Of a DNA stretch of 28,318 nucleotides, positions 6,674-27,843 are shown one piece after another (the first letter of the stretch is position 1; each line of letters starts with the position of its first letter). The notes beneath the pieces were generated by a model that saw only the letters and a list, made by a program, of their open reading frames with translations, made no database searches and was not told the DNA's origin. The stretch is taken from positions 1 through 28,318 of the IMG/VR virus record IMGVR_UViG_3300046820_000818, one strand, 5' to 3'. Made by a program: the position numbers and the translations under genes. The stretch comes from a virus.

Positions 6674-7969
6674 TCAGGCGTACGAATAACGCCCGTAATT
6701 GGGGAAAAGTTCGAAATACATACGCATCGCGATCGCGTCGGCGTAGTCGGGACTAAGGCCGTGGATTCGCTGGATTTCTTCTTTACCTGTTACCGCTAGT
6801 TTGCCGTCGCCGTCGGGGTTCTTTCGGCGTATCAAATCGAGCTCTTTAACTATTGTATCGCGGTGGTTTTGGGGTAAAATAACGCGGTTTAATTCGATAA
6901 GCTCCGCGAGTTTAAAAAAGCATTCGGCTTTGAGGTTAACAAACCGTTCAGGCTTAGTAGCCCTTGAGCCGTTACGAAACTCGCGACACTTCATGACGTC
7001 TACCAACCCAGCCCCCAGCCCGTCGGCGTCGGCTATTACGTTGGATAGTTTGACTTTATTAAAGTCGGCGAGCTGGCGAATAACCGAGGCCGTTTCGTCG
7101 ATTTTCTTTTTTCTAAGTTCAATTATTTGAATGAGGGACAAACCACGCCAGAGGGCGATAACAGTCCTATCCTTTCCAAGCCTAGCGACGTCGGCGGTAA
7201 TATATAACTCCCCGCTTTCCTGAGGGGCTCTAAAACAGCGCAACAAATCGTCGGTAGTAAAAAGGGCGTCTAAGGTTTCGTCATAGTCCCAATCGCCCTC
7301 TAAAAGCCTTTTACGGTCAACCTCGGGCAACCGCGCCAAAGTTTCGGCGTAGGTGGGGGGTAAGTGTGGGTTATCGGCCACGCGCGATTGAATAAACACT
7401 AAATGCGAGGGAAGGTGGCCCGAACGAAACGGGGCGAAAAATTCGTTATATAGCCAACCCTTTGACGGGTTACACGTTAGCAACGTTTTGGGGCTTAACT
7501 GAAATTGGTTAAGTCGGTAACGAATACGGCTCCTTACGATATCGATAGCCTTTTTGCTAACCTGGCTACACTCATCTATAAAAGCGTCGGTAATTTCTAG
7601 CGACCCGAGGGAATCAAATGAGGGGTCCGAGGGGTACGCGAAAAGGTCTTTTAAAATAATTTCGGAACCATTGTAAAACGTTATTACGTGCGATTGGGCG
7701 TTATACGAATAATGTTCGTTAGCCCTGAGCCCAAACATTCCCGCCACCTCGAAAAAGGTTTTTAAAGTGGTTTTCTTGAGGGTATCTAATTTGGAGCGGC
7801 CGATTAACCCGCGCGTTCCTGGGTACTTTAGCCGCCTTTGAATTTGCCACGCGCAACCTGTAAACGATTTCGCCCCTCCAGCGGCTCCGCCAAACAACAC
7901 AACCTCGGCGGGGGAATCCAACCCGAGGGCGTTTAAACATTCCTTTTGTTTGGGCAAAAATTCAACCAT
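6674..7969 (-). CDS. terL: terminase large subunit
   Basis: 431 aa from the ATG at 7969, which overlaps the stop of the upstream HTH gene (TAATG); the longer upstream frame is rejected because of that overlap. ATPase domain: Walker A-like GGAAGGAKS (27-35), Walker B with acidic pair ITDAFIDEC (E133), coupling motif LLTCNPSKGWLYNEF (163-177). Nuclease domain: ITADVARLGKDRT (D260), VIADADGLGAG (D314, D316), and DYADAIAMR near the C-terminus, the three acidic clusters of the RNase H-like fold. It powers DNA packaging into the prohead through the portal and cuts the concatemer. Its small subunit partner is apparently encoded far away on the other strand. Confidence 0.92.
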   Translation of the reverse strand: MVEFLPKQKECLNALGLDSPAEVVLFGGAAGGAKSFTGCAWQIQRRLKYPGTRGLIGRSKLDTLKKTTLKTFFEVAGMFGLRANEHYSYNAQSHVITFYNGSEIILKDLFAYPSDPSFDSLGSLEITDAFIDECSQVSKKAIDIVRSRIRYRLNQFQLSPKTLLTCNPSKGWLYNEFFAPFRSGHLPSHLVFIQSRVADNPHLPPTYAETLARLPEVDRKRLLEGDWDYDETLDALFTTDDLLRCFRAPQESGELYITADVARLGKDRTVIALWRGLSLIQIIELRKKKIDETASVIRQLADFNKVKLSNVIADADGLGAGLVDVMKCREFRNGSRATKPERFVNLKAECFFKLAELIELNRVILPQNHRDTIVKELDLIRRKNPDGDGKLAVTGKEEIQRIHGLSPDYADAIAMRMYFELFPNYGRYSYA

Positions 7970-8154
7970 TAAAACAGTTCGTTTAGAGGTTTGCCCGTTA
8001 TGGTGCTCAGCCTTCGAAGGTCGGCCAAATCCATTCGTTCGGGGTTTTTTAACCAACGGTAGGCCGTCCAACGGCTTACTTTCATTTTGCGGCTAAAATA
8101 CTCTCGAGTGCCGAAATGTTCGTTAACTATCGCGTTGAGTTTGCTTGCGTCCAT
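7969..8154 (-). CDS. small HTH DNA-binding protein
   Basis: 61 aa, essentially one Cro/XRE-like domain: FGTREYFSRKMKVSRWTAYRWLKNPERM contains helix 2, turn and recognition helix (residues 15-42; key part VSRWTAYRWLKN), followed by DLADLRRLSTITGKPLNELF, typical of XRE C-termini. It may regulate one of the nearby promoters. Because small terminase genes often sit directly before terL and also carry HTH domains, it could instead be a minimal packaging protein, but it is shorter than such proteins and the better small-terminase candidate is at 10392. Coupled to terL by TAATG. Confidence 0.7.
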   Translation of the reverse strand: MDASKLNAIVNEHFGTREYFSRKMKVSRWTAYRWLKNPERMDLADLRRLSTITGKPLNELF

Positions 8155-8976: not shown

Positions 8977-8992
8977 TTGTTCAGTTATTTTT

Positions 8993-9024
8993 TTTGCTCG
9001 GGGCAACGTGCCGCCGTATCTTGG
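8993..9024 (+). promoter_or_regulatory. rightward promoter before the sigma-like gene
   Basis: TTTG (8993-8996), 20-base spacer, then TATCTTGG (9017-9024), which differs from the Bacteroidota -7 consensus TAnnTTTG at one position. The distance to the proposed TTG start at 9052 allows a leader of about 20 bases. It faces away from the leftward promoter in the same 75-base gap. Confidence 0.5.
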
Positions 9025-9026
9025 GG

Positions 9027-9058
9027 CGAAATTAGTAGTTCTTTTGCTACATTGCAAA
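9027..9058 (-). promoter_or_regulatory. leftward promoter of the terL operon
   Basis: On the minus strand TTTG (9058-9055), 20-base spacer, TAATTTCG (9034-9027), a near match to the Bacteroidota promoter consensus. The spacer contains ATGTAGCAAAA (9052-9042), shared with the other leftward promoter at 6566-6593. The first start codon is at 8976. Confidence 0.6.
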
Positions 9059-9603
9059 TCTTAGACGCTGAAATAAAAAGACTATATCCAACGTGGCGAC
9101 GATACGCCCGCGGGCTCGTTGGCTCTCAGCCAAAAGGCGACGACTGTTTAAACGAAACACTTTTAAAGATACTCGAAAACCAACCCGAAAAGGCCGCCGA
9201 GCTCGCCAGCGCGGGGACGCTAGAGTTTTACGTTAACCGCGCCCTCTTTTTAATGGCGACCGATAAGAGTTCCCGCTATCATGTGAAATACAGCAAATTC
9301 GGGCTAAAATGGGACTGCGAAAGCTCGCGCCATCTTGGGGAACCTGTGCCCGTTTGGATGGGCTCCCGAGTAGATAACGAATATTTAGACGCCTATATTT
9401 CGCTCATGCCTGAATTAGACGCCACTATTTTGAGGCTATATATGTTCGAGGACTTCAGTTATAAAGAAGCGAGCCGCGTTACGGGTATTCCCGTCAAAGA
9501 GCTCTACCGACTAGTCGAAAAAGCAATAAATAAAATTAAAAAAAATGTTCACCGTACCCCCAGCAATTCGGGCCCAACGTCTAGCGACGTGCAAGGGCTG
9601 TAA
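9052..9603 (+). CDS. sigma-70-like (ECF-type) RNA polymerase sigma factor
   Basis: 183 aa from a TTG at 9052; no ATG is available upstream of the conserved part. An in-frame TTG at 8977 would leave no room for the promoters, so it is disfavoured. Region 2-like part: LYPTWRRYARGLVGS (11-25), DCLNETLLKILE (31-42), FYVNRALFLMATDKSSRYH (59-77). Region 4-like part: LMPELDATILRLYMFEDFSY (118-137), then KEASRVTGIPVKELYRLVEKA (138-158), a clear helix-turn-helix. It stands first in the rightward structural operon, so it probably redirects host RNA polymerase to late phage promoters; that is an inference. The 3' end overlaps the next gene by 59 bases. Confidence 0.7.
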   Translation: MQILDAEIKRLYPTWRRYARGLVGSQPKGDDCLNETLLKILENQPEKAAELASAGTLEFYVNRALFLMATDKSSRYHVKYSKFGLKWDCESSRHLGEPVPVWMGSRVDNEYLDAYISLMPELDATILRLYMFEDFSYKEASRVTGIPVKELYRLVEKAINKIKKNVHRTPSNSGPTSSDVQGL

Positions 9604-10391: not shown

Positions 10392-10721
10392 ATGGCATAC
10401 AACTTCCAAAAGTCCGAAATAAAAAAGGCTATCGAAGGCTCGGGCGGTTACATATCAGAAATAGCCCGCCGTTTGGGTTGCGATTGGCATACCGCTGATA
10501 AGTACATTAAACAGTTCGAACTAACCGATGTGCTACAAATCGAAGATGAAAAGTCCACCGACCGAGCCGAGGTTAAATTAATGGAGGCGGTCGAAAAGGG
10601 GGAAATAGCCGCTATCATTTTTAGGTTAAAGACCAAAGGAAAAAAACGCGGTTACGTGGAGCGCCAGGAACTGACGGGAGCCGATAACCAACCTATAATA
10701 ACTATTAGCGCCAACCTATGA
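10392..10721 (+). CDS. terS: probable terminase small subunit
   Basis: 109 aa. N-terminal HTH: IKKAIEGSGGYISEIARRLG (10-29), then CDWHTADKYIKQF, a homeodomain-like helix-turn-helix used by small terminases to bind the packaging site. The middle is an acidic helix (EDEKSTDRAEVKLMEAVEKG) for oligomerisation, followed by AAIIFRLKTKGKKRGYVERQ, a 'lKtkGKkRGYveRqE' ending that I know from small terminases of Bacteroidota phages. It would recognise phage DNA and hand it to TerL. TerL is about 2.4 kb away on the opposite strand, an unusual separation. It overlaps the next start (ATGA). Confidence 0.7.
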   Translation: MAYNFQKSEIKKAIEGSGGYISEIARRLGCDWHTADKYIKQFELTDVLQIEDEKSTDRAEVKLMEAVEKGEIAAIIFRLKTKGKKRGYVERQELTGADNQPIITISANL

Positions 10722-11308
10722 AGCTATATATTCCGATTTCAATAGACCAAATAAGCCTCGAGCGATTCGTTACGTTTTACACCTCGGCCGATGACGTCGA
10801 GCGCGTAATGGTGGCAATAAACAAAAGCCGCGAATACTGCGAGGGGTTGCCAGCCGCAACGATGCAAACGGTAATCGACCTTTTCGGGACCGCTTGCAAT
10901 ACGGGCAAAGAAAACCACGGCTCAATAGTCGAGGTGAACGGGGTTAAACTAGGTTTCCACCCAAACATAAACGGGCTTACGTTTAAGGAATGGGCCGATT
11001 TGGACCAACTCGCTAAATCGGTTTGGCCGACGGGTAAGGAGCCGAACTATACTAACCTACCGCAATTAATGGCGGTACTATTTCGACCCGTTGCCGAACA
11101 AGTAGGGACGTTTTACAACCTTGAGCCGTACGATAGCGAGAAAGTTCCTCGTTATATCGACGCGGTTAAATGTTTGACGATGGATAGAATACAGGGGGCG
11201 TTGCTTTTTTTTTCGAGTTTAAGCGCAGAATTAGTGAACAATTCTCTGGACTATTTGGATCGTCTGATAGTGACGGAGATAACGACGATTACACACCAAG
11301 CGGATTAG
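10718..11308 (+). CDS. tail assembly chaperone, short (zero-frame) form
   Basis: 196 aa in the zero frame. The C-terminal half carries a conserved-looking stretch (LFRPVAEQVGTFYNLEPYDS, EKVPRYIDAVKCLTMDRIQG, ALLFFSSLSAELVNNS). I read it as the G-like part of a siphovirus tail assembly chaperone, which coats the tape measure protein before tube assembly; the call rests mainly on the -1 frameshift arrangement, which is classic for these genes. Codons 163-165 (CTT TTT TTT) lie on a run of nine T. The zero-frame end after that run (31 residues) may be just the short-form tail. Confidence 0.65.
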   Translation: MKLYIPISIDQISLERFVTFYTSADDVERVMVAINKSREYCEGLPAATMQTVIDLFGTACNTGKENHGSIVEVNGVKLGFHPNINGLTFKEWADLDQLAKSVWPTGKEPNYTNLPQLMAVLFRPVAEQVGTFYNLEPYDSEKVPRYIDAVKCLTMDRIQGALLFFSSLSAELVNNSLDYLDRLIVTEITTITHQAD

Positions 11309-11469
11309 CGCGGTGGGGTTGGTTTCACATACTCGAAAGCATTTCGGGAAACGATATAACAAAGCACGAAACGGTTTTAGCCCAGCCGATAACCGCAATA
11401 TTTACTCACTTGAGTTATATGAGGGATTACAATAGCGAGCAAATTAGAATAATGAAGCAACGTAGGTAA
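10718..11469 (+). CDS. tail assembly chaperone, -1 frameshift fusion (GT-like)
   Basis: If ribosomes slip back one base at T TTT TTT (11206-11212), translation continues in the -1 frame for 85 codons to TAA at 11467-11469, giving a 250-residue fusion. The -1 frame is open from 11188, has no ATG near its beginning, and encodes a coherent-looking sequence (YTPSGLARWGWFHILESISG, TVLAQPITAIFTHLSYMRDY). Its stop overlaps the next start (TAATG), exactly like neighbouring genes. The other alternative frame meets a stop at 11220. This matches the G/GT design of lambda-type tail chaperones, where the T part contacts tube protein. A sequencing error in the T run is the main alternative. Confidence 0.7.
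11205..11213 (+). other. T9 slippery site for -1 frameshifting
   Basis: Nine T in a row; read in frame as C TTT TTT TTT with the heptamer T-TTT-TTT at 11206-11212 (X-XXY-YYZ form). Fourteen bases further on, AGAATT (11227-11232) can pair with AATTCT (11240-11245), a weak possible stimulatory hairpin. Confidence 0.7.
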
Positions 11470-13877
11470 TGATTACACAAATTAGTTATAACGTATTAAT
11501 CGAGCGGTTCCGCGCCTTCGCGTCGGGGCACTATCTAATAGAGGCGTTCACCCATGGCGAGTTAGCCCAAACGGATTTAGAAAAGGAGCAGCGCTTTCCG
11601 TGGATGCACGTTTTCCCCGTAGAGGTGGAACCGCGCCAGGGCTCGCGCCTTTATACGTTCGTGGTGACGTTCGCCGATTTGCCGCGCGACAAAGAAACCG
11701 ACGCCGAATATCAGCGCGAAAGCCTGAGCGATTGTATAAAGTTAGCGGAGGACTTACTAGCGGAAATTCAAAACGGGTTAGTCCTATTCGGGCCAACCGT
11801 GGAGCTCGAGGGTTCGGCCACTATCGAGCCGTTCATTAAAGAGTTTACCCACACGCTAACGGGGGTTAATTTAACCCTGACTATTTCGGTTCCGTGGAAT
11901 TGGTCGGCGTGCGATATTCCCGCCGACTGGACGGTAGGGGGTTCGGGTTCGGGCGGCTCAGGTGGCGGCATTGGTTTGCTGCTTCAAACGAATGGCGTAG
12001 ACAATGGCTCGCAATCATTACTCAACTTGCAAGCGGGCACTAACGTAACGATAACCGACAATGGCTCGGGCACTATTACGATTAGTGCAAGCGGTGGCGG
12101 TGGCGGAGGTGGAACGGTTACGAGTGTGGGCCTATCGGCTCCCGCCGCTTTTACCGTTTCGGGGTCACCTGTTACCACTTCGGGCACGTTGGCAATAACG
12201 GCGGCGGGTGACGAAACTGAATATATAGACGGGAAAGGTAATCTTACAACATTTCCAACCATTCCGCCCGCTCAGGTTAACAGCGATTGGGACGCGGTTA
12301 GCGGGGTCGAGGAAATATTGAATAAACCAACCCTAGCGGCGGTTGCAACCTCGGGCGATTATAACGACCTTAGTAACCTTCCAACCATACCGAGCACGCT
12401 CGACGATTTGAGCGACGTTAACGCGCCCGCTCCAACTAACGGACAGGTGTTAAGTTATAACAGCACCTCGGGCGATTGGGAAGCGGTCACACCGTCAACA
12501 GGTGGAACCGTTACCTCGGTAGCCCTAACCATGCCAACGGCTTTCGCAGTTACTGGCTCGCCGATTACTACGGCGGGAACGTTGGCCGTAACGGGTGCGG
12601 GTAACACGGGCCAATATATTAGGGGCGACGGTACTCTAGCTAACTTCCCGAGCACGGGAGGAGGTGGAGGGCAAATCTTCTATTTTAATGGCAACGTAAG
12701 TCAGGGCACAATAGGAGGCAACGCCTTTTTTCAATTAGGCACGGCGGCCAACACGGGCCCAGCGGCTAACTTTACACGCGCCACCACAGGCGTTATTGCG
12801 CGGTTTATTACCGACGTAAATAGCCCGAATCATTTGATAATTCCCGCGGGCGTTTGGACGGTGGACGTATACTTGAGCGAAACGGGAGGAGGTTCGAATA
12901 ACGCTGAAATAATAGCGGTTTTGAAGGTTTACAACGGCTCAGCGTTTACGACTATCGCGAGCTCACCACTTGAGCAAATAACCAACGGAAACGTCCCCGA
13001 CCTTTATACTTTTGCTATTTCGGTTCCGAATACGGTAACAGCCGCAACCGATCGCGTGGTTATTGAATTCGATATTCAGAACACTAACGGGAAAACGGTT
13101 ACACTTTACACCGAGGACGGCCGAATAGGTGAGGTGCATTCGACTTATGCCATTGGCTTGAGTTCATTGAATGGATTAACTGCCAACACACAAACGTTCG
13201 CAACGGGAACGACGGGAACCGATTTCGCTATTAACTCGGCGGGCTCAGTTCATACCTTCAATTTACCCACGGCCTCGGCGGCAAATCGGGGCGCACTCTC
13301 GAGCGCTGACTGGTCAACGTTTAATAGTAAACAAAATTCGATTGGTTTAACCACGGTGGGAACCAACCTCGCCACGTTGCCAAACCCGAGCGCGGTTCGT
13401 TACTTGAGAATAAACGCCGATAACACGGTTAGCGCGTTAACGATTGCGGCTCTGAAAAGCGATCTCGGAATTAATAGCGTGGTTTTGGGTAGTAACTTTA
13501 GCAATGTAGGGACGGCGAATTACGAGGACGTAACGGGGCTATCTTTCCCCGTAACTGCTAATAAAGTTTATAAGTGGCGGGCCACGCTGGGTTATACTAA
13601 CACGGCAAACATTCAATTCGCCATTGATGGGCCCGCCGTAACTTTTAACCGCTATCGCTTCACAACGGCGGGAACGACCACGAGCAACGCTGTAAATAAT
13701 CAAAGCGCGTATAATTTGCCAGCGGGTACGGTTGCGGCAACTAATGGCGTGAGCACGGCTGACGGGTTAATAAGGCCCAGCGCAAGCGGTACGGTAATAA
13801 TTCGAGCCCGCTCGGCTTCAGTCGGTGGGGTAACGGTTTTGGCGGGCTCTATTGTTGAATGGGAGGAGGTGTTATAA
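11469..13877 (+). CDS. tail fiber with tail-terminator-like N-terminal domain
   Basis: 802 aa. Residues 1-155 (starting ITQISYNVLIERFRAFASGH; YTFVVTFADLPRD; FIKEFTHTLTGVNLTLTISV) look like a compact domain that I recall as a separate tail-completion/terminator-like protein of Bacteroidota phages. A glycine-serine linker (157-169) joins it to fiber sequence: two 50-residue repeats (GTVTSV...GSP-TT-GTLA), SDWDAVSGVEEILNKPTL, SGDYNDLSNLPTIPS, LSSADWSTFNSKQN, all common phage-fiber modules, and a beta-rich C-terminus that may bind the receptor. The first domain probably anchors the fiber to the tail. A fusion of these parts is unusual; the domain boundary is my estimate. The gene is coupled to the chaperone (TAATG). 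Confidence 0.7.
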   Translation: MITQISYNVLIERFRAFASGHYLIEAFTHGELAQTDLEKEQRFPWMHVFPVEVEPRQGSRLYTFVVTFADLPRDKETDAEYQRESLSDCIKLAEDLLAEIQNGLVLFGPTVELEGSATIEPFIKEFTHTLTGVNLTLTISVPWNWSACDIPADWTVGGSGSGGSGGGIGLLLQTNGVDNGSQSLLNLQAGTNVTITDNGSGTITISASGGGGGGGTVTSVGLSAPAAFTVSGSPVTTSGTLAITAAGDETEYIDGKGNLTTFPTIPPAQVNSDWDAVSGVEEILNKPTLAAVATSGDYNDLSNLPTIPSTLDDLSDVNAPAPTNGQVLSYNSTSGDWEAVTPSTGGTVTSVALTMPTAFAVTGSPITTAGTLAVTGAGNTGQYIRGDGTLANFPSTGGGGGQIFYFNGNVSQGTIGGNAFFQLGTAANTGPAANFTRATTGVIARFITDVNSPNHLIIPAGVWTVDVYLSETGGGSNNAEIIAVLKVYNGSAFTTIASSPLEQITNGNVPDLYTFAISVPNTVTAATDRVVIEFDIQNTNGKTVTLYTEDGRIGEVHSTYAIGLSSLNGLTANTQTFATGTTGTDFAINSAGSVHTFNLPTASAANRGALSSADWSTFNSKQNSIGLTTVGTNLATLPNPSAVRYLRINADNTVSALTIAALKSDLGINSVVLGSNFSNVGTANYEDVTGLSFPVTANKVYKWRATLGYTNTANIQFAIDGPAVTFNRYRFTTAGTTTSNAVNNQSAYNLPAGTVAATNGVSTADGLIRPSASGTVIIRARSASVGGVTVLAGSIVEWEEVL
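12111..12260 (+). repeat. fiber repeat 1 (50 aa)
   Basis: Encodes GTVTSVGLSAPAAFTVSGSP and 30 further residues ending FPT. About 30 of 50 residues are identical to repeat 2 at 12504-12653. Confidence 0.8.
12504..12653 (+). repeat. fiber repeat 2 (50 aa)
   Basis: Encodes GTVTSVALTMPTAFAVTGSP and 30 further residues ending FPS; same length and phase as repeat 1. Both have GSP-TT-GTLA and a Y-I-G-G-L-F-P end. Confidence 0.8.
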
Positions 13878-19072: not shown

Positions 19073-21187
19073 ATGGCTCAAGATAGTAGCACGTTTTTAT
19101 TCACCCTCGAGGTTGACGACGCGGGCGCGGTTCAAAGCGTCGATAAATTAGCGGGAAGCGTCGAAGCGGCGGGAGCGGTTGCGGTCGCGTCTACTAAAAG
19201 CCTCAAGGCTCAGTTAAGAGAATTACAAGCTACACTCGCGGCCACCGACCCAGGAACGGACAAATATAATGAGCTCGCTACGGCGGCGGGTAAATTAAAA
19301 GACCAAATAAGGGACGCAAGCGAAGCCGTAGGGGCTCAAGCTGGGCCCGCCTTCGAACGTGTCGGGGGTTCGCTTGGTTTAGTAACTAGCCGCCTCAATT
19401 CGTTAGACTTTTCGGGAGCGGCCGAGGGTGCGAACCTACTCGCTAAAAACCTTAAAGAAGCAAAGCCAGGCGAATTCGCTAAAGGAATTGGCGACGTTGG
19501 TAAATCGTTCGGAGCGGTTGGAAAAGCCCTTTTAACAAACCCGCTTTTTTTGATTGGCTCAGCTATCGCGCTTTTGATAGTAAACTTTGACAAACTCGCT
19601 AATGTAGTTCCCGCTCTAGGTATTGCTTTCGAAGCAATTGGGGCGGTTATTGGTTTCGTTAAAGACGCGGTAACAGGTTTTACCGATGCTATCGGTTTAA
19701 CAAGTGTCGCGGCGGCTGAGGCCGTTGATAATGCGATAGGCTCATTAGACCAACGCCAAAAGGATTTAGATAACGCCCGCCGTTTGGCCGTCGCCAATGC
19801 TAAAAAAACAGGCACCGACGTTGAAGAGGTTAACAAAGATTTTCGCCAAAAAGAAATTAATTTAAATAATGATACAATAAACAAAATTAACGCCCTAGAA
19901 AAGCGCGGCGTTAAACTAACGGAGGACCAACTAAAAGCCCGCCAAAAGGCAATAGACGCAAATACTGAGCTCGCGATTAAGGCGGCCGAAAAAGAGGGCG
20001 ACGCAGTAGAACAAATAAGAAAGGACGCCGAAAAAACCGAGGCCGACCGATTGGCAAAAGAAGCCCGCGACCGAGAAGCGGCGGCGCAAAGAGCGGCCCA
20101 AGCGGCCGAGGCTCGAAAGGCTCGCGAGGCTGAGGTTACCGACGCAATTAAACAGGCTCAAGAAGAGCGTTACCAACTCACCCTAACAGATGAAGACCGT
20201 GAGTTGCGACAGTTGCAATTAAAATACGATAAGCTAACCGAGAAAGCGGGCAAAAATCAAAAGCTAATAACCCAACTCGAAGAGCAAGAATTACTAGACC
20301 GCCAAGGTATACGCGATAAATACACGGCTCAGGAAGAATCCGCGCAAACGGCGGCCGATGCTAAAATAGCCGAGGATAACGCCGCGGCCGCTGCTAAAGA
20401 AACCGAGGAAAGATTGGCCCGAGAAAAGGCACAAATTAAATTACAGCAAGATTTAAACCGCGCTCGATTAAGCGAAAATGAAGCTCGCCGACAAAAAGAG
20501 GTCGAAGAGTTGAATCTTGAGTATGACGAAAAATTTGCCATTGCTAAAGGCAATACCGATTTAGAGAAGCAACTAGCCGAAGAGAAAAAAACCGAACTAG
20601 CCCGAATAAACAAAGAGTATCGCGACGCCGAAAAAGCCGCCGACGAAAAGAGCCAACAAGATAGGCTAGATGCCTTCATGAAAACGAGCGACAATATCGC
20701 GCGAACTGCTCAGGACGGTTTTAATACTTTGATTTCGTTAAACGAGGCGTTTTCGGGTAAAAGCGAGGCGGCACAAAAAAAGTCGTTTAAAAGAAATAAG
20801 GCGTTACAAATCGGTTTGGCGAGCGTTCAAACCTACCAAAGCGCGACGGCTGCTTATGCCTCTCAGGTTATTCCTGGCGACCCGACCTCGGTAGTCCGTG
20901 GTGTAGTGGCGGCGGCGGCGGCGGTTGCGGCGGGCCTCGCTAATATTGCAAAAATTAAGGCGACCACATACGAAAGCCCAGCCCCTAGCGGTGGTAATAA
21001 TAGCACGGGCGGCGGTGGTGAGCTTTCTTCGACGGGCGTTGCTTCTAGCGGCGTTCCTGAGTTTAACCCGCTGGCTAGTTTAAACCTAAACCAACCGCAA
21101 CAAATACAACCCGCCTACGTATTGGCGGGCGATATTGCTAACGCTATGGAGGCTCGCGCTAAAGTTACGGACTTAAGCCGTTTATAA
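19073..21187 (+). CDS. tape measure protein
   Basis: 704 aa, rich in Ala, Lys and Glu. Order: charged start; helical region (LKAQLRELQATLAATDPGTD); hydrophobic stretches at about 150-200 (PLFLIGSAIALLIV, AFEAIGAVIGFVKDAV); long coiled coil from about 220 to 540 with heptad-like A/E/K repeats; C-terminal part KRNKALQIGLASVQTYQSATAAY then hydrophobic Ala-rich VVRGVVAAAAAVAAGLANIAKI, typical of tape measure C-termini. It sets tail length and is ejected ahead of DNA. Using about 1.5 angstrom per residue, the tail would be near 100 nm. Unusually it lies about 8 kb from its chaperone gene. Confidence 0.85.
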   Translation: MAQDSSTFLFTLEVDDAGAVQSVDKLAGSVEAAGAVAVASTKSLKAQLRELQATLAATDPGTDKYNELATAAGKLKDQIRDASEAVGAQAGPAFERVGGSLGLVTSRLNSLDFSGAAEGANLLAKNLKEAKPGEFAKGIGDVGKSFGAVGKALLTNPLFLIGSAIALLIVNFDKLANVVPALGIAFEAIGAVIGFVKDAVTGFTDAIGLTSVAAAEAVDNAIGSLDQRQKDLDNARRLAVANAKKTGTDVEEVNKDFRQKEINLNNDTINKINALEKRGVKLTEDQLKARQKAIDANTELAIKAAEKEGDAVEQIRKDAEKTEADRLAKEARDREAAAQRAAQAAEARKAREAEVTDAIKQAQEERYQLTLTDEDRELRQLQLKYDKLTEKAGKNQKLITQLEEQELLDRQGIRDKYTAQEESAQTAADAKIAEDNAAAAAKETEERLAREKAQIKLQQDLNRARLSENEARRQKEVEELNLEYDEKFAIAKGNTDLEKQLAEEKKTELARINKEYRDAEKAADEKSQQDRLDAFMKTSDNIARTAQDGFNTLISLNEAFSGKSEAAQKKSFKRNKALQIGLASVQTYQSATAAYASQVIPGDPTSVVRGVVAAAAAVAAGLANIAKIKATTYESPAPSGGNNSTGGGGELSSTGVASSGVPEFNPLASLNLNQPQQIQPAYVLAGDIANAMEARAKVTDLSRL

Positions 21188-21269: not shown

Positions 21270-21851
21270 ATGGATAAAAAGAAAGTAGTTAAATGCATTA
21301 TAGACGCCGAGGGTAACTTGGGCGTAGATGCTATTTCGTTGGTTGAATTCCCCGCTATTGAGTCGAATTGGGTAGCCCTAAAAGCTGAAACAAAATTGAG
21401 CGCACTCGATAACGAGCGCCGAATGCTATACGGCCCCGCGCTGATTCCCGACAAACCGATTTTGAGAATTGACAAAGAAACGGGCGAGGAGTATTATATA
21501 GTTTTTGATAAGGAAACAATTTATAATTGTGCTCATGCGTTCATGAAAAACGGGTTTCAAAAGTCCCACACTTTCGAGCATCAAAAAACCATTGACGGGG
21601 TTACCGTGGTCGAATCTTGGTATAAAGAAAGCGAGAGCGATAAGAGTACTTTTTTAGGGTTAGACGTTCCCGTTGGAACTTGGGTAATAGGCTCGAAAGT
21701 AGACAACCCCGAAATATGGGCGAGCGTCAAAGAGGGGAAAGTAAAAGGCTTTTCGATTGAGGGTTATTTTGACCACGTGGGCTTGAGCCTATCGCAAACG
21801 CCTGAGGAGCTTTTAATTTTAGAGGTGCACAATTTATTGAGCAATTTATAA
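21270..21851 (+). CDS. head maturation protease (XkdF-like)
   Basis: 193 aa. Pattern VDAISLVEFPAI near the start, then GYFDHVG after the active-site region, and in between HTFEHQKTIDG, VTVVESWYKES, FLGLDVPVGTWVIGSKV, IWASVKEGKVKGFSIEGYF. The 'v-v-ESWy----gl--P-GtWv-g-kv---e-W--VK-G-vkGFSIEG' series is the XkdF/S78-type prohead protease signature; H104 and S162 are likely catalytic residues. It should cleave scaffold and capsid proteins during head maturation. It is separated from the scaffold gene by a reverse-strand gene and stands directly before a bidirectional terminator. Confidence 0.8.
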   Translation: MDKKKVVKCIIDAEGNLGVDAISLVEFPAIESNWVALKAETKLSALDNERRMLYGPALIPDKPILRIDKETGEEYYIVFDKETIYNCAHAFMKNGFQKSHTFEHQKTIDGVTVVESWYKESESDKSTFLGLDVPVGTWVIGSKVDNPEIWASVKEGKVKGFSIEGYFDHVGLSLSQTPEELLILEVHNLLSNL

Positions 21852-21897
21852 AGCTGGTTTAGTGTGGTATAAGTGTTTAAGTGTTATTGTTTAAAGT

Positions 21898-21927
21898 AAA
21901 AAGGCCTCCAAACGTGGGGGCCTTTTT
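21898..21927. terminator. bidirectional intrinsic terminator
   Basis: AAAAAGGCCTCC, loop AAACGT, GGGGGCCTTTTT: a 12-bp stem (one G-T pair) with A and T tracts on both sides. It serves both the rightward protease gene and the leftward gene 21976-23022, which converge here. Confidence 0.85.
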
Positions 21928-21975
21928 CAACAATAACAAAAAACATATATATAGAACCAAGCGGACGCCGCTAAA

Positions 21976-23022
21976 TTAAAACAATTTTTCTTCGCCTGTT
22001 TCTAAATTTATCGATTGGCCGATATTTTCGTTTTTTCCCTGAGCGGGCAAAAATTCCATATATGCCAACAGCTCGGCGGACTCCTTCAAGTCGGGGTTAA
22101 AGGTAAGCGTTTTCGTTTTAGCATCAAAAGCGTTGACGGTTCCCGCTTGAATATTTATAGTAGTGTCCTTTGCGGGGTCCAAACCTATGTTAAGAGTAGA
22201 CCCATAAACGTTATCCGTTACGTTCAAACCTGGCCCATTATATAGCCTGTACATTTGCATGAAGCCCGAATAGGTTTTACCGAAAGAGTTAATTAGCGTT
22301 TTGTAGTTAAACGAATTTGACGGCTCGCCATTAATGTAAGCCGTGCTCTTTACTTGGTTACCCGTGCGCTCGATATCCATTGCGATATTATTTATGTGAG
22401 TGGCTGGGTTGGTTTTAACTATGTTATAAGTCCAACGGCTTTTATAAATTACTTCGTCCATTGTTAGCCCGCAAAGGCTCAAGAATTCAGAACGGCGGAG
22501 GCGTTTTTTTGGGGTAATTGCAAACCGCGAGGTCCACACAACCTTTCCCGCTTTTACTATTCGGGCTTTATACTGAACGCGCATAACGGGGTCGTTCATA
22601 TCTAACGCGACGCCGTTTAAAGTGGTTTCGTAAGGCTCAAACATTTGCTCTATTCTGTCCTCATTCAAAAGTAGTTTTCCGTCTACGTAATACACGTTTT
22701 GCCCCGCGAGCCCGCTCATTTCAGGGTGAACAACCCACACGCTCGGGCGGTGCAATAAATAACCCTGAGGCGTTTCTCCCGCGTCGGTATAATTTCCATG
22801 GTGTAACATTCCCGCGATATAGTTTAAAGGGTATAAACCAAACGGCGCGGCTATTCCGTCGCGGAATTCAACCTCGTAACGATTAACGGGGAGCGGGCCC
22901 GTCGTGTCGGTTATTTCGTAAACAGTAATCGAGCGGGTTACGCGGGTTTGAACCTGTCCGTCGAAACGGGCGAAATGGTCGTGGAGGCCCAATACCTCTA
23001 GAGTTTTTTCAATGTTTGCCAT
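21976..23022 (-). CDS. unknown reverse-strand gene within the head module
   Basis: 348 aa, beta-rich, no family recognised. Features: TLEVLGLHDHFARFDGQ at the start; YEVEFRDGIAAPFGLYPLNY; an N-rich central part (GNQVKSTAYINGEPSNS); and a C-terminus with TLTFNPDLKESAELLAYMEF. No transmembrane segment, signal peptide, catalytic motif or HTH is seen. It is the only leftward gene in a 19-kb rightward block, lies between protease and scaffold genes, has a terminator at its end and a possible -7 box (23037-23044) before it. It may be a structural or decoration protein or a host-interaction (moron-like) gene; both are guesses. Codon use looks like its neighbours. Confidence 0.7.
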   Translation of the reverse strand: MANIEKTLEVLGLHDHFARFDGQVQTRVTRSITVYEITDTTGPLPVNRYEVEFRDGIAAPFGLYPLNYIAGMLHHGNYTDAGETPQGYLLHRPSVWVVHPEMSGLAGQNVYYVDGKLLLNEDRIEQMFEPYETTLNGVALDMNDPVMRVQYKARIVKAGKVVWTSRFAITPKKRLRRSEFLSLCGLTMDEVIYKSRWTYNIVKTNPATHINNIAMDIERTGNQVKSTAYINGEPSNSFNYKTLINSFGKTYSGFMQMYRLYNGPGLNVTDNVYGSTLNIGLDPAKDTTINIQAGTVNAFDAKTKTLTFNPDLKESAELLAYMEFLPAQGKNENIGQSINLETGEEKLF

Positions 23023-23036
23023 GTGTGTAATTTTTA

Positions 23037-23044
23037 CGAAAGTA
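23037..23044 (-). promoter_or_regulatory. possible -7 box of the reverse-strand gene
   Basis: TACTTTCG on the minus strand differs from TAnnTTTG by one base and has the same TTCG end as the terL promoter. It lies 15 bases before the ATG at 23022. No TTTG is found at the -33 spacing, so this is a weak call. Confidence 0.35.
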
Positions 23045-23088
23045 GGAAAAAAAAAGCGTTTCCGTTTTTACTAAAAAATTATATACCA

Positions 23089-23700
23089 ATGTCTAAAGTT
23101 AATCTAAAAGAATCTTTGAAAGAGATATTTTCAAAATTCAAAATTGACCCTAGCGTTCACGGTATTAAACTCGAAGAGGTGGCCTTAGAAACTGAGGGCC
23201 GTCTAAAGGATGGGACGCCCGTATTTACGAGCGCGGATTCTTTTGCTATTGGCGTCGACGTTTATACTAAGGACGAAGAGGGTAACAAAGTAGCGGCCGC
23301 CGCTGGGCGTTACGAACTCGAAACGGGCGAATTTATCGACGTTAATGAGCTCGGCCAAATAGCCGAAATGGGTATTCCTGAAATGGAGGAGGAAATGAGT
23401 TCCGACGATTTGCTCTCCGCAATTAACAAACTCAGCGAGCGCGTTTCAACCCTTGAGGGTGAGAAAGCCCAACTCGAAACCGAACTTTCTAACGCTAAAA
23501 ATGAGGCCACTAAAACAGCCGAAAATTTGAGCGCGATTAAGGCGGAATTGAGCGCGGTTAAAAAGCAACCCGCAATCGCTAGCGTAAAGGATAAGCCGAC
23601 TACTAAAGTCGTTTTGCAAAGCGATAAAAAAGAAAAGTCATTTAACCAAATGACTATTAAAGAGCGAATCCAAAAGAATATCGAAAATATTAAAAAATAA
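23089..23700 (+). CDS. scaffold-like head protein
   Basis: 203 aa from the ATG at 23089 (MSKVNLKESLKEIF); a longer frame upstream to 23023 would enter the promoter region. N-terminal part (30-110) is a small beta domain (EGRLKDGTPVFTSADSFAIG, VDVYTKDEEGNKV, GRYELETGEFIDV); residues 120-175 are a coiled coil (LSERVSTLEGEKAQLETELS); the C-terminus is basic (KSFNQMTIKERIQKNIENIKK in parts). Position directly before the capsid gene, acidic centre, coiled coil and basic end are those of scaffold proteins, which guide capsid assembly and are removed by the protease. Family assignment is by type. Confidence 0.65.
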   Translation: MSKVNLKESLKEIFSKFKIDPSVHGIKLEEVALETEGRLKDGTPVFTSADSFAIGVDVYTKDEEGNKVAAAAGRYELETGEFIDVNELGQIAEMGIPEMEEEMSSDDLLSAINKLSERVSTLEGEKAQLETELSNAKNEATKTAENLSAIKAELSAVKKQPAIASVKDKPTTKVVLQSDKKEKSFNQMTIKERIQKNIENIKK

Positions 23701-25301: not shown

Positions 25302-25697
25302 ATGAATTATTTAACTACAAATCTCGCGGGGCAAACGCTCCGACTAACTTTAAACGAAACGCGGCAATACTTCGCCCAAACGTTTACGCATTTTCTTTTG
25401 ATTATAACCCACGAGGAGAATTCTACGGCGGGCGATAGTATCTCACAAGTGCCTGTTATTGTGCTCGAAAACCAACGAATAACCCAACTAACGGTAACAA
25501 CGGTCGGCCTAACTTTACAGGGCCGTTATCGTTACTACGTTTACGGGCAAAATTCAGCCGTAAATTTAGACCCGAATAACGCGGCCGTTGTGGGCCTTTG
25601 CAAAATAGGCACTATCGAGCTCGTTAATTCGACTCAGTATTACGACGTTCCTTCGATAACTATAACCGACGATATAATTTACAATGGAAACCCCTAA
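25302..25697 (+). CDS. hypothetical beta-rich structural protein
   Basis: 131 aa from the ATG at 25302 (MNYLTTNLAGQTLRL); a TTG start 21 bases earlier would lie in the terminator. Mostly beta strands (QTFTHFLLIITHEE, QVPVIVLENQRITQLTVTTV, YRYYVYGQNSAVNL, GTIELVN, VPSITITDDIIYNGNP). This type of small beta-sandwich protein occurs near the portal gene in Bacteroidota phages, from memory, and may be a minor head or decoration protein. The 3' end overlaps the portal gene by 14 bases, suggesting coupled translation. Confidence 0.6.
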   Translation: MNYLTTNLAGQTLRLTLNETRQYFAQTFTHFLLIITHEENSTAGDSISQVPVIVLENQRITQLTVTTVGLTLQGRYRYYVYGQNSAVNLDPNNAAVVGLCKIGTIELVNSTQYYDVPSITITDDIIYNGNP

Positions 25698-27843
25698 CCA
25701 AGTCAAAAGATTAGAACTAGCCGACTACACGGTTCGCAGTTCGGCCGAGAAATTAGACCGCTCGGGCTGGGTAAGCTACGGAGTCGATAATCTTTTTCCG
25801 CAATACCTTAGAGAATTAGCCCAAACGGGGGCCGTACATGGATCGCTGTGCGTTTCTATTGGCGAAATGATAGCTGGCAAAGGGTTGCAAGCGGGGGTAT
25901 ATAACAAACGCCTCGAGGAACTGAAAGCCTACGACGTTTTTTACGGGTGTTCTAATGACTTGAAATTATATGGCGGTTTTTACATTGAAATTATTTACAC
26001 GGTAGACCGCGAGAACGTGGCTAAAATGCGCCATTTGCCATTTGAAGAGTGTCGCCTAGCGGTAACGGGTGAGGAGGAGGAAATTTGTGGCGTTTATCAT
26101 TCTAACGATTGGGCCAATACTCGAAAGAAAAGAAATAAACCCGAGTTTATACCGATTTACAACGTAATGAGTAAAGCGGAAGAACCGCGACAGGTTTATT
26201 ATTGCTTTAATTACGCGGGTTCTAATTTCTACCCACGCCCCGACTATTACTCGGCTATTAACTCGATAGAATTAGCTAAGGAAATTAGCGTTTACCACGT
26301 TAATAATATCATGAATGGACTGAGTCCGTCTATGATTGTAAGCCTTTTCCAAGGTGCGCCCGCCCCCGACGAACAACAGCAAATAAAAAGAGATTGGGAG
26401 CGTCAATTAACAGGGGCTAGAAACGCGGGAAAGTTTATAATGACTTTCAACGAGCGCGATACGCCACGCCCTGAGATTACTACTTTTCCGCTCAGCGACG
26501 CCGATAAACAATACGAGTTTCTTTCAAAAGAATCGACCTCGCTAATTATGGTAGCCCACCGCGTGGTAACTCCTTTGATTTTTGGAATACGCGACACGGG
26601 CGGCGGTTTCGGTTCGAATAAAGACGAAATGGCGGTCGGTTTGGAAATATTCACGAACCAAGTAATCGAGCCCGCTCAAAAGAAGATAGCCAAATCATTC
26701 GAGGAGGTTTTGGGCTTCGAAATGCCAGGATTGACTATTACGGTAATTCCAAACTCGCCACTAATTCAAGCCCCCGCGACCACGGCGGAAATTCCAGCCC
26801 CAGCCGCTCCCGTAATGGCTGAGGACGAAAAAAAAAAGTTTTGTAACTGCGAGAATCTAGCGGAATCATTCGAGCCAACGAATGAAATGAAAACGGCGGC
26901 CGAATTGGGGTTAAAATGGAGGGCCGAATACAACAGGGGCGGAACTGAGGTCGGAGTGGCTAGGGCTCGTGATATTTCTAACGGGCGTAATCTTTCAGTC
27001 GATACTATACAGCGAATGAATAGTTATTTCAGCCGTCACGCCGTAGACAAAGAGGCGAGCGGTTGGAACCAAGGCGAAGAGGGTTACCCTAGCGCGGGGC
27101 GTATCGCTTGGGAACTGTGGGGCGGTGACGCTGGGCGTGATTGGGCGGCTCGTATGGTTGCAAGGATCGAGAGAGAAAATCTTAGTTCCGATACCGCCGA
27201 CGCATTAATCGCATTAGGAGAAGATAATCCTGAGGGTTATATTTTAATAGATTTCTATGAGGTAGATTACGATACTGACGAAGCCGAAAACGAGGAGCTC
27301 GTTAAAATCGAGGCTCACGAACTCGCCAGCACGGGTAGCGCAAAAGCCATGATGCCAAGCGACCAAGACGAAACCAATTACGCGGGCGTTACCTTTATGA
27401 CGCGCTACCGATACGCTGGCTCTAAAAGTCCCGAGCGTGAATTTTGTAAAAAAATGATGGCGGCCGATAAACTTTATAGGAAAGAAGATATAGAGGCGAT
27501 GGAATTTAAAGCGGTTAACCCGCATTGGGGGCCGAACGGTTCTAATTTCTATTCGATTTGGCTCTCAAAGTCATGCCAACTATCTAATAATGAGCAAGTT
27601 AACCTATATAAGGGCGGAGGTAATTGCTATCATTTTTGGAGAAAGGAGGTCTATATTAACGCCAAAGGAATAAACCCGCTCGCTAACGACGCCCAACAAA
27701 TCGCAGTAGCTAAAGCGGCCAAAATGGGTTACCGTATAAAGAACGACGAACTAGTTGCGCTGTTACCTATTGACCAAGATTATAACGGATTTTTAGAAAC
27801 TAACCCCGTATATGGAAAGGACGGGAAAAATTATAGACGCTAA
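25684..27843 (+). CDS. portal protein with two extra C-terminal domains
   Basis: 719 aa. Residues 1-362 are portal-like: SGWVSYGVDNLFPQYLREL, GSLCVSIGEMIAGKGLQ, DLKLYGGFYIEIIYTVD, RVVTPLIFGIRDTGGGFGSN, VIEPAQKKIAKSFEEVLG. A Pro/Ala linker (363-380) follows. Domain B (about 400-497) has EYNRGGTEVGVARARDISNG, MNSYFSRHAVDKEASGW and YPSAGRIAWELWGGDAGRDW, a module I recall in phage head proteins. Domain C (about 570-719) has SPEREFCKKMMAADKLYRKE and LYKGGGNCYHFWRKEVYI, also seen in Bacteroidota phage head proteins. The portal forms the ring for DNA passage. The added modules may help in assembly; their function is unknown. Domain borders are estimates. Confidence 0.75.
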   Translation: METPNQVKRLELADYTVRSSAEKLDRSGWVSYGVDNLFPQYLRELAQTGAVHGSLCVSIGEMIAGKGLQAGVYNKRLEELKAYDVFYGCSNDLKLYGGFYIEIIYTVDRENVAKMRHLPFEECRLAVTGEEEEICGVYHSNDWANTRKKRNKPEFIPIYNVMSKAEEPRQVYYCFNYAGSNFYPRPDYYSAINSIELAKEISVYHVNNIMNGLSPSMIVSLFQGAPAPDEQQQIKRDWERQLTGARNAGKFIMTFNERDTPRPEITTFPLSDADKQYEFLSKESTSLIMVAHRVVTPLIFGIRDTGGGFGSNKDEMAVGLEIFTNQVIEPAQKKIAKSFEEVLGFEMPGLTITVIPNSPLIQAPATTAEIPAPAAPVMAEDEKKKFCNCENLAESFEPTNEMKTAAELGLKWRAEYNRGGTEVGVARARDISNGRNLSVDTIQRMNSYFSRHAVDKEASGWNQGEEGYPSAGRIAWELWGGDAGRDWAARMVARIERENLSSDTADALIALGEDNPEGYILIDFYEVDYDTDEAENEELVKIEAHELASTGSAKAMMPSDQDETNYAGVTFMTRYRYAGSKSPEREFCKKMMAADKLYRKEDIEAMEFKAVNPHWGPNGSNFYSIWLSKSCQLSNNEQVNLYKGGGNCYHFWRKEVYINAKGINPLANDAQQIAVAKAAKMGYRIKNDELVALLPIDQDYNGFLETNPVYGKDGKNYRR

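Follow-up and report, generated by a model that had tools for sequence, protein, structure and literature searches.

Tail assembly chaperone genes of long-tailed phages are the closest known counterparts of the gene considered here, and the synthesis of two products by –1 frameshifting is widely conserved among these phages despite low sequence similarity (PMC5009743). In lambda (gpG/gpGT) and HK97 (gp13/gp14), one gene specifies two products with a common N-terminal part, the longer one gaining an extra domain encoded in the –1 frame through a frameshift near the 3′ end, and the gene has tail-module neighbours (PMC5009743). These frameshifts have been described as ribosomal, and in E. coli the U_UUU_UUU site shifts less strongly than A_AAA_AAG (PMC5009743). 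Two products are also obtained by transcriptional slippage, as in Thermus dnaX and IS elements, whose genes carry a run of nine A or nine T with a largely conserved length (PMC1088944). Frameshifting in tail chaperone genes is therefore already well known (PMC5009743); the family from Bacteroidetes phages analysed here is annotated as hypothetical proteins, its two parts being placed in PHROGs in two separate families of unknown function. No report or annotation of tail frameshifting in Bacteroidetes phages was found in a literature search that did not cover most subscription papers. The isolate homolog of both parts is provided by genes 38 and 39 (phrog_32199 and phrog_38404) of the Nonlabens phages P12024S and P12024L, about 27% identical to the protein described here, which carry nine T in the same place and are annotated as two unrelated hypothetical proteins.

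The stretch of DNA analysed, hereafter the window, comprises the 28,318 nucleotides of the IMG/VR virus record IMGVR_UViG_3300046820_000818, whose host group is inferred to be Bacteroidetes because its relatives include the phages of Nonlabens and a single MAG contig from Bacteroidetes. The gene under study, whose start ATG overlaps with the upstream gene's stop, carries a run of nine T (Table 1). The anatomy proposed in an earlier note, made from the window sequence alone, was confirmed as regards the position of the run at codons 163–166, a –1 frame that is open from 11188 to 11469 and lacks a start codon close to where it opens, the 85 residues that this frame would add after a tandem slip, the overlap of its stop with the next ATG (TAATG, 11467–11471), and a +1 frame that stops at 11220. 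The –1 frame had no ORF of at least 60 aa in the ORF list. Two products are predicted, of 196 aa (0 frame) and 250 aa (fusion), which would have the first 165 residues in common, followed in the fusion by 85 new ones. It had also been proposed that resequencing of the run to either eight or ten T would yield one continuous frame; this holds for ten T, but eight T lead into the +1 frame and its early stop.

Table 1. Features of the frameshift gene and its neighbours, in positions of the window
Feature	Coordinates	Strand	Description
Small helix-turn-helix gene	10392..10721	+	Overlaps the ATG of the frameshift gene; weak Pfam HTH matches
0-frame gene (gpG-like)	10718..11308	+	196 aa; phrog_32199 family, function unnamed, E 2.1e-9
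Nine-T run	11205..11213	+	Codons CTT TTT TTT TCG, codons 163–166
Slippery heptamer T TTT TTT	11206..11212	+	Register for tandem –1 slippage
–1 frame extension (T-domain-like)	11212..11469	+	85 residues (11212–11466) and stop
Dual-frame overlap	11213..11308	+	0-frame tail of 31 codons and stop
Next gene	11469..13877	+	802 aa; ATG overlaps the –1 stop
Tail length tape measure protein	19073..21187	+	phrog_1538, E 1.9e-12

The explanation that we consider best, with moderate confidence, is a programmed –1 recoding on the nine-T run, with two products that most likely act as gpG and gpGT do. Most expression would end at 11308 and yield the 196-aa protein, while a presumed minority would slip by –1 on the T TTT TTT heptamer and continue to 11469, yielding the 250-aa protein. 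The shift would most likely consist of a tandem slippage of two Phe-tRNAs placed in the P and A sites of the ribosome.

The conservation of the site was assessed by scanning IMG/VR with the 0-frame protein, its alignments and a distant homolog from an isolate; the –1 domain served for a separate search, run with a narrow alignment, all –1 domains together being too diverse as a query. These scans yielded a few hundred loci. In the first set, obtained mainly through the 0-frame protein and grouped into 32 clusters at 65% amino acid identity, the in-frame T TTT TTT was present in 181 of 181 loci, and two further loci ended before the site. Similarly, all the 157 loci retrieved by means of the –1 domain alone presented the upstream gene in the other frame together with 9 or 10 T in a row, and none of them carried a continuous fusion of the 0 and –1 frames. 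The two sets overlap in many contigs and jointly comprise 187 distinct sequences, every one of which preserved an in-register X XXY YYZ heptamer, T TTT TTT, at the homologous place in spite of variable flanks. The codon preceding the heptamer was GTT, CTT, TTT, ATT, ACT or CGT, and the one following the run encoded Ser, Tyr, Ile, Trp, Thr or Phe. Among 84,980 genomes of bacteria and archaea that were scanned, a single relative was recovered, in the Bacteroidetes MAG contig (L200), also with nine T. The slip site is considered real because all 187 distinct related sequences keep it. Homopolymers are prone to error and one more T would fuse the two frames, so that a sequencing or assembly error, or a decayed gene, could in principle conceal a single continuous frame; yet the out-of-frame arrangement in 187 of 187 sequences, including that of the isolate Nonlabens phage P12024S, rules out error or recent decay, and the 0-frame tail beyond the site is itself under selection, which leaves this reading a practically negligible probability.

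The selection acting on both frames was revealed by counting substitutions in nearest-neighbour pairs of the window's group, per 60 nt and according to 0-frame codon positions 1/2/3. The last 60 nt before the run presented 18/1/49 changes, a typical coding pattern. Just beyond the site, in the part that the 0-frame tail overlaps, the first 60 nt presented 5/6/15, with low values at all three positions. Between 120 and 180 nt after the site the changes were 6/50/15, which corresponds to the –1 pattern. The run thus marks a switch in periodicity: before it, substitutions fall on third codon positions of the 0 frame, and beyond it on those of the –1 frame. Since changes are first low and then follow the –1 pattern, selection acts on the –1 product as well as on the beginning of the 0-frame tail. 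The earlier note had named as a possible refutation the lack of conservation of the –1 frame in related phages; the frame turned out to be conserved, with substitutions that follow it. In the relatives, residue W39 of the –1 domain is invariant, G38 and D50 are nearly so and TK is common, and conservation begins at the run itself (FF...R).

These observations also bear on the possibility that the –1 part is not a fusion but a small gene that starts independently, as it appears in the annotation of P12024S, in which it is a 55-aa gene with an internal start. This reading was rejected on the basis of the substitution pattern and of the arrangement found in the 187 sequences, and is regarded as very improbable: –1 conservation begins at the run and not at an internal start, no start codon lies close to the point where the –1 frame of the window opens, and the T run would serve no need. 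Judged from these comparisons, recoding at the T run is nearly certain.

The portion of the 0 frame that lies past the site, a point of difference from the lambda and HK97 genes, varies among relatives, from 16 to 86 codons in the other cluster representatives (31 in the window). In one branch (L170, e.g. L170:1987-2721), this tail reaches 79–84 codons, against 94 codons in the –1 frame, and is constrained almost throughout at every codon position, with 29 position-2 changes over 240 nt vs 23–48 per 60 nt at the upstream third position. A stretch of about 250 nt therefore seems to be coding in both frames in this branch, a pattern suggestive of alternative C-termini whose lengths are similar. 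The L121/L102 branch also has a long 0-frame tail, which is only weakly constrained.

The step that produces the shift was approached through the length of the run, which among the 187 distinct sequences was nine T in 178, ten in 6 and seven in 3; runs of eight did not occur. A –1 ribosomal slippage on T TTT TTT is somewhat favoured, and is the most likely step because three relatives (L108, L115 and L116) retain just seven T, exactly the heptamer and in exact register. The ribosomal reading thus rests on the invariant in-register heptamer and on these three loci. A downstream structure or an upstream Shine-Dalgarno-like stimulator is common, though not obligatory, at –1 ribosomal sites. As to the weak downstream hairpin to which the earlier note had drawn attention, the window has a local fold downstream, with z as low as –2.2 in 50-base windows that start 18–30 bases past the heptamer. 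This fold is not conserved, because the 32 cluster representatives average a z of about 0, and conserved downstream structure was absent from them; the hairpin was therefore ruled out as a conserved stimulator. By inspection, no G-rich upstream element that could act as a Shine-Dalgarno-like stimulator was common to all the representatives.

Alternatively, RNA polymerase could add one U at the nine-T run, so that on the fraction of the mRNA with ten U the ribosomes would pass directly to the –1 frame. Homopolymers of about nine or more, with a length shared by homologs, are what this mechanism calls for. As 178 of the 187 runs have exactly nine T, transcriptional slippage competes seriously with the ribosomal reading, although it is to be taken as possible rather than probable. 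The prevalence of nine T and the lack of eight are maintained even though one branch (L102/L121 type) has its nine T displaced by one base in the codon register, and 9A/9T runs whose length is kept from one homolog to another have been regarded as a sign of purposeful slippage (PMC1088944). In addition, the A-site codon is always TTT, though TTC makes up 39% of the Phe codons upstream in the gene, and the fold z values of the 32 clusters gave no conserved ribosomal stimulator. On the other hand, the three relatives with seven T preserve precisely a ribosomal heptamer in register, a difference from the genes known to use transcriptional slippage, as is the fact that phage structural-module genes are involved here, and tail-chaperone frameshifts have been reported as ribosomal (PMC5009743). 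Amino acid constraints in both frames can explain why further T's flank the heptamer, the preceding codon encoding mostly Val, Leu or Phe and the first –1 residue being Phe, Leu or Tyr; therefore, the counts of run length are not decisive. Ribosomal and transcriptional slippage may also act together. The claim of a programmed –1 frameshift stands as regards recoding, strongly upheld by site conservation and the switch in periodicity, and we infer that the step is ribosomal rather than transcriptional.

As to function, the gene is probably, by analogy, a tail assembly chaperone of the G/GT type. The short form, abundant, would coat the tape measure protein like lambda gpG, and the long form, rarer, would recruit tail-tube subunits via its extra domain like gpGT; in chaperones of this type, neither form remains part of the virion. 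The role is made plausible by the two-product design, the tail and neck genes nearby and a top but weak fold match to the HK97 chaperone. The sizes are alike, lambda G having 140 aa and the products here 196 and 250 aa; the slip site differs, being T TTT TTT here and GGGAAAG in the TP901-1 chaperone (PMC4493119). The AlphaFold2 model of the 0-frame protein presented a mean pLDDT of 83, and its top row in VIA-align was the HK97 tail assembly chaperone 2ob9 (HK97 gp13), a weak match (Z 3.4, rmsd 2.9, 53 residues) with a score far below the safe level of the tool. Foldseek gave no significant match against the PDB. In a viral structure library, many uncharacterised homologs were retrieved, including that of Nonlabens P12024S, together with weak matches named tail assembly chaperone. 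The model of the –1 domain was poor (mean pLDDT 65), and its matches in this library were weak and unnamed. Two of these, A0A516L5A8 (260 aa) and A0A6J5N0W0 (267 aa), were retrieved with the 0-frame model as well and may carry the two parts in a single frame.

Sequence searches of Pfam, NCBIfam, PHROGs and the PDB supplied no functional name for either part, and hhalign profile comparisons with lambda G, lambda T and HK97 gp13 revealed no homology (probabilities <1%). Low sequence similarity is common among tail chaperones (PMC5009743). The position of the gene also differs, since in lambda and HK97 the chaperone gene lies between the major tail protein and tape-measure genes, and here the tape-measure gene is found 7.6 kb downstream, with four genes between. 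Chaperone and tape-measure genes are usually, though not strictly, adjacent. The neighbours of the frameshift gene are conserved: in several lineages it follows the terminase and precedes a small protein, a neck/tail-completion-like protein (phrog_5, E 4e-4) and two large genes.

This context leaves room for a rather unlikely reading in which the frameshift occurs as described and its products serve another step of virion assembly, such as neck or head completion. The gene would fit such a role in that it directly follows the terminase in several lineages and precedes a neck-like gene instead of adjoining the tape-measure gene, and in that the known chaperones have no sequence homology to it; against this, its domain architecture and sizes match G/GT, the top structural row is the HK97 tail assembly chaperone, and weak matches in the viral library bear that name. 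The identification as a tail assembly chaperone put forward in the earlier note is thus sustained by architecture, neighbours and the weak HK97 fold match, but not by sequence homology or adjacency to the tape measure.

Other features of the module were observed. The terminase large subunit gene of the window (6674–8071, minus strand) is on the strand opposite to the tail genes, and in several other lineages it is directly upstream of the frameshift gene on the same strand. A sigma-factor-like gene (8977–9603; phrog_1740, E 2e-11) lies just upstream of the structural module, a position kept in close relatives. The N-terminal part of the 11469–13877 gene product is homologous to a protein of ~140–160 aa that is free-standing elsewhere (phrog_30964), and is joined here to a long glycine-rich, fibre-like part. 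In the region 21270–23700, the first half of phrog_24921 (349 aa) matches 21270–21848 and the second half 23023–23697, so that a protease-scaffold gene is seemingly split by an inserted reverse-strand gene of 348 aa (21976–23022). The portal gene (25684–27843; phrog_33693, E 2.7e-59) is lengthened at its C-terminal end by a long part that matches a further family of unknown function (phrog_2859, residues 397–499).

The results call for a joint annotation of phrog_32199 and phrog_38404, now listed as unrelated, which concerns hundreds of phage contigs. It is also conceivable, although doubtful, that in this lineage of Bacteroidetes phages the ratio of the two tail-assembly products is set by RNA polymerase at the nine-T run, with a derived seven-T sublineage that relies on the ribosome and some branches with dual-coded C-termini. 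The sites with seven, nine and ten T in one gene family form a natural series, which offers a direct way to ask whether phages set their tail-assembly ratio by transcriptional and not by ribosomal slippage.
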